From Weissella sagaensis (lineage in GTDB: Bacteria > Bacillota > Bacilli > Lactobacillales > Lactobacillaceae), in the NCBI RefSeq assembly GCF_005405285.1, contig NZ_BJDT01000001.1, forward strand, positions 282,726 to 346,725: a stretch of DNA of 64,000 bases, read 5' to 3'. Below are positions 51,889-54,928 of this stretch, one piece after another (the first letter of the stretch is position 1; the number at the start of each line of letters is the position of its first letter). The notes beneath the pieces were generated by a model. The model did not search any database. It was not told the origin of the DNA and worked only from the letters and a program-made list of their open reading frames with translations. A program made the translations under genes and the position numbers.

Positions 51889-51894
51889 AGTCGT

Positions 51895-52132
51895 ATCGAC
51901 AGCGATAAGATGAGTACGGTCAATGTGTTTTATAGAGAGTCAGTGATGGGTGAAAACTGATAAACACTTGATTGGAAGATGGTCTTGGAGTCATAAATGA
52001 CATGAACAACACGTGAATGCCGTTCGGAAACGCCCGTTATAGCGATGAGAGGATGAGCCTAATTGGTTTATTAAATTCGGGTGGTACCACGTGATAACGT
52101 CCCGTAATCTTAATTGATTACGGGACGTTTTT
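51895..52132 (+). promoter_or_regulatory. T-box riboswitch (tRNA-Met) upstream of luxS
   Basis: T-box sequence GGGTGGTACCACG (52079-52091) with bulge TGGT (52082-52085). Terminator 52096-52109/52116-52129 plus T-run. Stem I has AGAGAG and the distal loop 'TGATGGGTGAAAACTGA'. Likely specifier ATG at 51979-51981 (in GAAGATGG). Links methyl-cycle luxS expression to methionine charging. Confidence 0.9.
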
Positions 52133-52684: not shown

Positions 52685-52735
52685 AAAAAAGTTGGTTAAA
52701 ATACTTGATTTACAAGTCATTAACCAGCTTTTTTT
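52685..52735 (+). terminator. Terminator after luxS
   Basis: AAAAAAGTTGGTTAA (52685-52699) pairs with TTAACCAGCTTTTTT (52720-52734), one mismatch, with an inner ACTTG/CAAGT helix. Confidence 0.9.
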
Positions 52736-52863
52736 GCCCACTAAGCAAAATAGAAGAAGACTTTAAAAGTGAAAAATCGCAATAGTTAGCATATAATATT
52801 TAAAAATTAATAATTTCTAATAATGTTTAGCAAATGAACTAGTCAAAGAGCGGGGGAAAAGAT

Positions 52864-53718
52864 ATGCCAAAAATTAGTGAAGTATTTCAAGAGTATGGCT
52901 TTAAGGACGATCGTTTAACTTTACTAGCCGGCCCATGTGCCATTGAATCATATGAAACTTGTGCTGAAGTTGTTGAAGAATTGAAGAAGATTACTGATGA
53001 GTTAGGGATTAACTATGTGTTTAAGTCATCCTTTGATAAGGCTAACCGTAGTGCCATCTCATCTGATCGTGGTTCTGGCATGGAGACGGGACTTGAAATT
53101 CTACGTCAGATTAAAGAGAAGTATAATGTGCCAATTGTGACTGATGTCCATGAGTCTTACCAATGTGCACCAGTTGCTGAAGTTGCTGATGTGTTGCAGA
53201 TTCCAGCTTATTTGAGTCGTCAGACTGATTTATTGTTAGCTGCTGCTAAGACAGGTCGCGTTGTTAACATTAAAAAGGCGCAGTTCATGGCACCAGAAGA
53301 TATTCAGAGTGCAGTGAATAAAGTTGCCTCACAAGATAATGAGCATATTTTAGTCACTGAACGTGGTACCATGTTTGGTTATCATCAGTTGGTGGTGGAT
53401 ATGACGAGTTTGATTCAAATGCGTGAAACTGGCTACCCAATCATTTACGATGCAACCCATTCAGTTCAAATTCCGAGTGGTTATGGTAACCATTCTGGTG
53501 GTAATCGTGAATACATCTTCCCATTGATGCGGGCAGCCTTATCAATTGGTATTGATGGTATTTTTGCTGAAGTCCACCCTAACCCACCTAAGGCTATTTC
53601 TGATCAAGATAGTCAGCTCTATCTATCAAAGGCACGTCCAATCCTAGAAGAAGCCAACAAGCTATTCCACGAACATCTTAACAGTAAGGTGGTGTATGCA
53701 GATGAAGACTTATTATAA
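52864..53718 (+). CDS. kdsA: 3-deoxy-D-manno-octulosonate 8-phosphate synthase (class II, metal-dependent)
   Basis: 284 residues, the usual KdsA length. Condenses arabinose 5-phosphate with phosphoenolpyruvate to Kdo-8-phosphate. The motif KANRS (59-63) marks KdsA; DAHP synthases have KPRTS here. C25, H199, E236 and D247 keep exactly the spacing (174, 37, 11) of the Aquifex metal ligands Cys11, His185, Glu222 and Asp233. 'AGPCAIES', 'SRQTDLLLAAAKTGR' and 'IYDATHSVQ' also match Aquifex KdsA. It follows GCGGGGGAAAAGAT and overlaps kdsD by 17 bases. Kdo synthesis is unexpected in a lactic acid bacterium; kdsB, kdsC and Kdo transferases are absent from the window. Confidence 0.93.
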   Translation: MPKISEVFQEYGFKDDRLTLLAGPCAIESYETCAEVVEELKKITDELGINYVFKSSFDKANRSAISSDRGSGMETGLEILRQIKEKYNVPIVTDVHESYQCAPVAEVADVLQIPAYLSRQTDLLLAAAKTGRVVNIKKAQFMAPEDIQSAVNKVASQDNEHILVTERGTMFGYHQLVVDMTSLIQMRETGYPIIYDATHSVQIPSGYGNHSGGNREYIFPLMRAALSIGIDGIFAEVHPNPPKAISDQDSQLYLSKARPILEEANKLFHEHLNSKVVYADEDLL

Positions 53719-54655
53719 AGATGCTAAAGAGACCTTTAATATTGAAATTAAAACTTTAGAAAAGGTCCGTGATGCTTTAGACGAAAGCTTTGACCAATTT
53801 GTTGATGATGTTTTACAGATGACAGGTCGTTTAATTTTTATCGCGATTGGTAAATCAGGTATTATTGCTGAAAAAATTTCGGCTTCATTTTCCTCGATTG
53901 GGGTACCAAGCTTTTTCATCGATGCTGGAAACGCCTTTCATGGTGACTTAGGTCGAGTATCCGCAGATGATGTGGTTGTATTTGTCTCTAATAGTGGTGA
54001 AACAGAAGAAGTATTACAAACGTATTTTGCGTTGCAAGAGATTTTTGGTAAAGATTTAAAAACAATTGCTTTAACAGGTGCATCAGATTCAACATTGGCA
54101 AAAAATACACAGGAGGCATTAATTGTTGATGTGGCTTCTGAAGCGGACGTTACCAAATTAGCGCCAACCAACTCAACAACGGCAACGTTGGTCGTTGGGG
54201 ATGCGTTATTAATTGCGGTTCAAAAAGAAAAGCAATTCACGAAAAAAGATTTCGCTTTGTATCATCCAGGTGGATCAATTGGTAAGCTGTTGTTGCAAAC
54301 AGTTAAAAATGTCATGCATACCAAGGTACCTTATGTTGATATCGAGACACCGCTTAACGATGTTATCTACCGTATTAGTGATTTTGGTATTGGAATGACG
54401 CTAGTAAAGGATCAAGATAAAGTTGTTGGGATTGTGACAGATGGCGATATTCGTAAGAAAATGCTTCATGTTACTAAGGTTAAGGAATCAACAGCTGCTG
54501 ATTATATGACAGAAGGGTTTATTAGTATCGACGTTAATAAACGAAATCGAGCAGCATGGCGTAAGATGGCTACGCATAACATCTCTAATTTAGTTGTTAC
54601 TGAAAAAGGTGAAGTTGCGGGAGTTATTACCATCAACGACGTTGTTGATGAATAA
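53702..54655 (+). CDS. kdsD: Arabinose 5-phosphate isomerase (KpsF/GutQ type, SIS + two CBS)
   Basis: 317 residues. Converts ribulose 5-phosphate to arabinose 5-phosphate, the KdsA substrate. SIS domain about 35-180 with 'GKSGIIAEKI' (K51), 'HGDLG' (80-84), 'SNSGETEE' (96-103) and 'YHPGGSIGKLL' (H188). K51, E103, E147 and H188 line up with the catalytic residues of E. coli KdsD. 'LAPTNSTTATLVVGDAL' is the family signature. CBS domains are at about 205-260 and 268-317. AAGGTGG lies nine bases before ATG 53702 and only three before the in-frame ATG 53696. Pairing with kdsA supports a Kdo module over a general SIS isomerase. Confidence 0.9.
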   Translation: MKTYYKDAKETFNIEIKTLEKVRDALDESFDQFVDDVLQMTGRLIFIAIGKSGIIAEKISASFSSIGVPSFFIDAGNAFHGDLGRVSADDVVVFVSNSGETEEVLQTYFALQEIFGKDLKTIALTGASDSTLAKNTQEALIVDVASEADVTKLAPTNSTTATLVVGDALLIAVQKEKQFTKKDFALYHPGGSIGKLLLQTVKNVMHTKVPYVDIETPLNDVIYRISDFGIGMTLVKDQDKVVGIVTDGDIRKKMLHVTKVKESTAADYMTEGFISIDVNKRNRAAWRKMATHNISNLVVTEKGEVAGVITINDVVDE

Positions 54656-54760: not shown

Positions 54761-54784
54761 AATGTCAATCAAGAATAACCTTTA

Positions 54785-54906
54785 AGTGTAGTCCAGTGAG
54801 GCTAACAAAGGATACCCAAGTTGATGGCAGTCATCCAAAATAGGTGAATCATACTATCGAATAACTTAGTAAGCCTTATGAATCACTGGATTCATAGGGC
54901 TTTTTT
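54785..54906 (+). promoter_or_regulatory. PyrR-dependent attenuator of the pyr operon
   Basis: AGTCCAGTGAGGCT (54790-54803) followed by AAAGGAT is the PyrR RNA-binding loop (consensus TCCAGAGAGGCT). A terminator follows: 13-bp stem 54872-54884/54889-54901 with TTTTTT. UMP-bound PyrR would favour termination. pyrR itself is not in the window. Confidence 0.9.
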
Positions 54907-54928
54907 GCGTAAACAATGAGGAGATAGC

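Follow-up and report, generated by a model that had tools for sequence, protein, structure and literature searches.

A kdsA-kdsD pair between luxS and the pyr operon

The window, a 64,000-nucleotide stretch of the Weissella sagaensis genome (G000; 1.93 Mb, 99.97% complete), carries two overlapping genes on its forward strand. The first, kdsA (52864..53718, + strand; 284 aa), follows the ribosome site GGGGGA and encodes a Kdo-8-phosphate synthase of the metal-dependent class, an assignment that draws on profiles, PDB matches, a tree and residue comparison. The second, kdsD (53702..54655, + strand; 317 aa), encodes a kdsD/kpsF-type arabinose-5-phosphate isomerase with a SIS domain and a CBS pair. 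An alternative ATG at 53696 would give a kdsD product of 319 aa, but the second ATG, at 53702, is the more likely start, because it agrees with the starts of homologues and lies farther from AGGTGG; with this start the two genes overlap by 17 bases. Kdo, a sugar acid, is mostly associated with the outer membranes of Gram-negatives, and its biosynthesis serves as an LPS marker and a Gram-negative drug target.

The gene order is luxS, kdsA-kdsD, pyr operon, and the GC content of the pair is close to that of its neighbors. Direct reading of the sequence reveals a terminator-like inverted repeat with a T run between luxS and kdsA, 3′ of luxS (52688..52735, + strand); the repeat is absent from the list produced by our terminator scan, its loop being longer than the scan permits. 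A promoter-like site for the pair, GTGAAA-17-TATAAT (52769..52797, + strand), matches at 10 of 12 positions; such sites occur in the region at chance level (9 observed, 8.8 expected), and what supports this one is its position. On the 3′ side, a PyrR-binding attenuator 5′ of pyrB (54775..54907, + strand; RF00515) borders the unit, with a score barely at the gathering threshold (54.1 bits vs 54). From this layout of terminator-like repeat, promoter-like site and bordering PyrR site, kdsA-kdsD is probably a separate two-gene transcription unit. Farther upstream, a T-box leader precedes luxS (51893-52107; 117.4 bits, gathering threshold 93).

Identity of the two proteins

KdsA exceeds the cut-offs of two curated equivalog profiles, NF003543 (385 bits, cut-off 242) and TIGR01362 (361.4 bits, cut-off 314), and falls below that of a third KdsA model, NF009109 (287 of 457). 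Its best match in the PDB is the Aquifex KDO8P synthase (295 bits), while DAHP synthase chains reach at most 97 bits. The KANRS motif lies at residues 59-63, and the metal ligands C25, H199, E236 and D247 are spaced by 174, 37 and 11 residues as in the Aquifex enzyme, where the ligands are presumably numbered C11/H185/E222/D233. Motif and ligands, both singled out in the preliminary description of this DNA, are retained in all 31 KdsA sequences from lactic acid bacteria. The closest named proteins come from Weissella fangxianensis and W. paramesenteroides (92%). The protein thus resembles the Aquifex-type metal-dependent synthases in family, motif, ligands and spacing; it differs in that its host has no recognizable KdsB or KdsC and in that the lactic acid bacterial KdsA sequences form a clade of their own.

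KdsD passes the cut-off of the KpsF/GutQ subfamily (TIGR00393, 234.6 bits, cut-off 203.7), and Pfam finds a SIS domain followed by two CBS stretches. The narrow KdsD equivalog, NF008141, is matched below its cut-off (239.3 bits, cut-off 505), and the GutQ equivalog cut-off of 481 is likewise unreached. The catalytic residues, which we take to be K53, H82, E105, E149 and H190, are conserved among the 31 sequences from lactic acid bacteria: the last four in every one, and K53 in 30, the exception (L132) being a sequence from which that part is absent. The presumed catalytic residues and the two CBS domains proposed at the outset are present. In domain architecture, catalytic residues and subfamily score, the protein is like the KdsD/KpsF/GutQ isomerases; it is unlike them in falling short of both equivalog cut-offs and in having as its best PDB sequence match a SIS-only structure, 5uqi, presumably the c3406 paralogue of E. 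coli CFT073. Clade-specific changes in the CBS domain and at position 151 were considered as a pointer to a new ligand, since F275 and D151 at first appeared specific to the lactic acid bacteria; we rejected this idea, because Y occupies position 275 in the nearest Bacteroidales KdsD and 5uqi has D at position 151.

Judged by sequence, the match of the pair to KdsA and KdsD is far beyond chance. We infer that both enzymes would be active as an arabinose-5-phosphate isomerase and a Kdo-8-phosphate synthase: KdsD would convert ribulose-5-phosphate to arabinose-5-phosphate, and KdsA would join arabinose-5-phosphate and PEP to give Kdo-8-phosphate.

Distribution and descent

A survey of Lactobacillaceae finds KdsA (E up to 1e-40) in 30 of 397 genomes, spread over 8 of 40 genera and including 6 of the 26 listed genomes of the host's own genus; in an order-wide sample, 6 of 395 genomes have a KdsA match, every one of them Lactobacillaceae. 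A KdsD spanning both SIS and CBS parts (E 1.7e-104 or better) occurs in the same 30 genomes and nowhere else among the 395 searched, although the match in G348 stops at residue 291. The two genes are adjacent at all 31 loci from lactic acid bacteria. A Gram-positive that has no LPS pathway, Clostridium tetani, reportedly has an arabinose-5-phosphate isomerase, API, described by Cech et al. in 2017; in contrast to that enzyme, the KdsD of Weissella and other lactic acid bacteria is always accompanied by KdsA in the genomes searched.

Carriers with a name include Leuconostoc gelidum, L. rapi, L. litchii, L. miyukkimchii, L. falkenbergense and Ligilactobacillus ubinensis, and the pair is also found on plasmids of L. 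citreum and L. mesenteroides. Among 110 plasmid records with any match, 2 show 80-90% identity and 108 lie under 60%. In one genome (G338:C6:155773-156558, in L132), kdsD is matched from residue 59 on and has one in-frame stop, with kdsA intact; this copy of kdsD is probably in decay.

We built trees of both proteins. The KdsA tree, a quick one, has 105 rows (104 KdsA sequences plus the host's own DAHP synthase as an outgroup with a very long branch). In it, the 31 KdsA rows from lactic acid bacteria form one clade (SH-aLRT 99) apart from the DAHP synthase, and its nearest relatives are one Bacteroidales and one Planctomycetia assembly, the Bacteroidales relative likewise having kdsA and kdsD in tandem. 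The main groups of the KdsA tree recur in the KdsD tree, with minor differences inside them. The simplest reading of these sequences would be a single entry of the pair from a Gram-negative-like donor, followed by descent with losses and plasmid spread. A clean empty insertion site was not found: in eight non-carrier Weissella genomes and in G719, a genome outside the KdsA survey, the 8-kb surroundings of luxS are without the cysS, pyr and car neighbors. Compared with L134, KdsD is 98% and KdsA 93% identical at the protein level; a mosaic origin of the Weissella kdsD was considered and rejected, as DNA identity along the region has no clear break.

Both genes are under purifying selection. The dN/dS of kdsA lies at 0.018-0.060 in 14 of 16 pairs, with one pair saturated and another, of near-identical plasmid copies, at 0.29; that of kdsD lies at 0.015-0.077 in 15 of 16 pairs, the other being saturated. 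Several of the dS estimates are rough, at values above 1.

Later steps of the Kdo pathway in the carriers

The preliminary description had noted that kdsB, kdsC and waaA are missing nearby; family searches extend this to the whole host genome and to all 30 carriers. The KdsB family (PF02348) gave weak matches alone, in 15 of the 30 genomes, with a best score of 25.5 bits and nine tallied above the low cut-off of 22.6 bits, against matches in 11 of 14 controls. Fourteen of these 15 matches fall in frames of GlmU length (459-470 aa), the fifteenth in an IspD/TarI frame of 243 aa; the six GlmU-length frames scanned further, including the host's own, are all GlmU. For KdsC, no carrier exceeds the cut-off of 106.95 (best 45.9 bits), and 4 of 14 controls do. 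Matches below this cut-off occur in all 30 carriers, and the two that were scanned are Hydrolase_3 HADs, general HAD phosphatases, so a stand-in phosphatase for KdsC is possible. The search for Kdo transferases covered two families: WaaA (PF04413; found in 3 of 14 controls) and KpsC/KpsS (PF05159; 2 of 14 controls) are both absent from the 30 carriers.

A complete CMP-Kdo pathway, which requires KdsB, KdsC and either WaaA or KpsC/S, is thus not present in the carriers as far as these families are concerned; the profiles used would miss a non-homologous activating enzyme or a novel transferase elsewhere in the genome. With no recognizable KdsB, the route has no known way to CMP-Kdo. An IspD/TarI cytidylyltransferase was considered as a teichoic-acid-like activator and rejected: scores above 100 bits occur in 4 of the 30 carriers and not in the genome of the window.

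Complete kds sets in other Bacillota

Of ten loci read in Bacillota other than lactic acid bacteria, eight (six from Bacillaceae, plus L014 and L020) have KdsB-like, kdsA, kdsD and KdsC-like genes side by side, interrupted at L019 by one additional gene; no KdsC neighbor was seen at L026 and L049. The five of these eight that were scanned all encode KdsB (NF003952) and KdsC (TIGR01670) above the cut-offs near kdsA-kdsD, and do not reach the narrower cut-offs of TIGR00466 and NF007019. These loci serve as a check that the profiles detect KdsB and KdsC genes in Gram-positives.

Judged by eye, the six Bacillaceae sets sit among glycan-like genes. An island of Bacillus coahuilensis m2-6 contains kdsA, kdsB, kdsC, kdsD and kpsC together with glycosyltransferases (PMC4744853). 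The island resembles the Weissella locus in that a Gram-positive has acquired Kdo genes, and differs in having a full set with kpsC and glycosyltransferases, where Weissella has kdsA and kdsD alone (PMC4744853).

Gene neighborhoods of the pair

The 31 loci from lactic acid bacteria present many differing gene contexts. Within three genes of the pair lie 87 neighbor families, of which 67 were scanned (6 of these 67 have no Pfam match), and no glycosyltransferase is found among the 67. Stress and redox functions are represented (glutathione peroxidase, AhpC, thioredoxin, SDR, PNPOx), as are enzymes of PEP and pyruvate metabolism (PPDK, PflBA, LutB, pyruvate oxidase, malic enzyme); 6-phosphogluconate dehydrogenase and transporters are also seen. 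The main exception is L118, where the gene immediately upstream of kdsA encodes a polysaccharide pyruvyl transferase. At L116, a gene for a 744-aa PF00884 protein (sulfatase-fold, LTA-synthase-like) lies about 5.6 kb upstream.

In one genus, four of five loci (L116, L117, L119 and L120) have a CcpN-like regulator and PPDK downstream of kdsAD; the match to the regulator, at 198 bits, is below the cut-off of 260. The product of PPDK, PEP, is a substrate of KdsA.

Downstream of the pair on two Leuconostoc plasmids come an IS30 element, genes for an SDR and a CorA protein, and Gls24/AmaP stress genes. In the plasmid stretches covered (34.6 of 47.7 kb for the second plasmid), no gene is annotated as KdsB, KdsC or a Kdo transferase; the gene tables of the plasmids are incomplete. 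These plasmids (L113 and L114), both from Korean fermented foods, have in common the block kdsA-kdsD, IS30, SDR, CorA, DUF1345 and Gls24/AmaP. On the chromosome of L. miyukkimchii (L008), kdsAD likewise has the SDR, CorA, Gls24 and AmaP clusters next to it.

Another polysaccharide pyruvyl transferase is encoded on one plasmid with the pair. We rejected this enzyme as a partner of the pair, as it is common to Weissella carriers and non-carriers: PF04230 occurs in 4 of 6 Weissella carriers (as short fragments only in the genome of the window) vs 15 of 20 known non-carriers, and also in 2 of 2 Weissella genomes outside the KdsA survey.

A proposed role for the pair

We put the probability at roughly 0.55 that the pair forms a truncated, self-contained and conserved Kdo route, which makes Kdo-8-phosphate for a soluble product with a role in stress or carbon physiology rather than for an LPS-like glycan. 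The product would be either Kdo-8-phosphate as such or, after the action of a general HAD phosphatase, free Kdo, and it would serve stress or central-carbon physiology. A soluble octulosonate is the simplest candidate because the searches turned up none of the later steps and the pair spreads in their absence. We infer both the phosphatase step and the soluble fate, the latter from this absence and from neighborhoods that differ between genera; it is the weakest part of the proposal. The pyruvyl transferase genes at L118 and on one plasmid and the LTA-synthase-like gene at L116 speak against it. A more tentative suggestion, to which we give less than even odds, is that Kdo-8-phosphate may be used without CMP activation or LPS, either as a soluble protective octulosonate or in a polymer linked by its C8 phosphate. 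If true, such a polymer or soluble octulosonate would mean that the Kdo pathway can end in a new way.

The surface glycan suggested in the preliminary description is the part of that account that gains no support: the synthesis of arabinose-5-phosphate and Kdo-8-phosphate remains predicted from the protein families, but the searches revealed no KdsB, WaaA or KpsC/S, and no glycosyltransferase among the neighbors scanned. In such a scheme, Kdo-8-phosphate would enter a glycan through an unrecognized replacement for KdsB or KdsC plus a new transferase, or through a teichoic-acid-like phosphodiester link at the C8 phosphate. To our knowledge, every characterized use of Kdo is in a glycan. The pyruvyl transferase gene adjoining kdsA at L118 points the same way, as do the complete Bacillaceae sets amid glycan-like genes, including that of B. 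coahuilensis (PMC4744853). Against this, none of the 30 carriers has a KdsB-family protein beyond the GlmU-length and IspD-type frames, or a WaaA or KpsC/S; the true IspD/TarI proteins are confined to four carriers other than the window's genome; PF04230 is no more frequent in Weissella carriers than in non-carriers; and the scanned neighbors lack glycosyltransferases. In our judgment a glycan is less likely than not, and a soluble product is modestly favored over it. It is improbable that the pair serves only to drain or to regulate pentose-phosphate and PEP, for instance through an arabinose-5-phosphate signal, as has been proposed for GutQ, with Kdo-8-phosphate as waste. Several genera do have neighbors in PEP, pyruvate and pentose-phosphate metabolism (CcpN-like regulator with PPDK, PflB-PflA, LutB with a LutA-like gene, pyruvate oxidase, malic enzyme, 6-phosphogluconate dehydrogenase), but these sets vary by genus and could be chance, and a SIS-plus-CBS KdsD is never seen without KdsA in 395 genomes, so arabinose-5-phosphate alone is not what is kept.

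That the pair is a non-functional relic of horizontal transfer might be read from its patchy spread and the broken kdsD of G338; the low dN/dS of both genes across deep divergence, their strict pairing and the concordance of their trees in the main groups make this very unlikely. Least credible of all is that KdsA is a DAHP synthase or its backup, a reading that the preliminary description had named as one that would overturn it. The common Pfam family, PF00793, would allow it, but profile and PDB scores are far higher for KDO8P synthase, KANRS is present, the tree places the protein in a separate clade, and the host genome has its own DAHP synthase (TIGR01361, 354.7 bits, cut-off 267.75).

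The enzymes themselves are of known kinds, and database annotation already names both genes in Leuconostoc. Among the best matches listed from the open-licence literature, we found no treatment of an orphan kdsA-kdsD pair in lactic acid bacteria. A conserved two-enzyme version in food lactic acid bacteria, with no recognized activating step, implies an unrecognized fate of Kdo-8-phosphate, and an annotation of kdsA or kdsD by itself does not predict Kdo-containing glycans. Leuconostoc, Weissella and the plasmid-borne copies are workable hosts for finding that fate.

Other relatives of the two genes

Relatives of the SIS half of KdsD alone, mostly 200-235 aa long and 32-51% identical to that half, occur in G009, G049, G107, G132, G186, G316, G370 and G393, and as a second copy in G330; apart from G330, these eight genomes are absent from the KdsA carriers. 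A search of phages returned 14 records with a top identity of 47.8%. Unannotated Listeria, Staphylococcus and Enterococcus 'phage' records (OR84xxxx) have DAHP-synthase-like matches, with 27-30% identity to KdsA; several are just 2-8 kb long, and the records look like host contamination. A Streptomyces plasmid carries kdsA, a SIS gene and kdsB.
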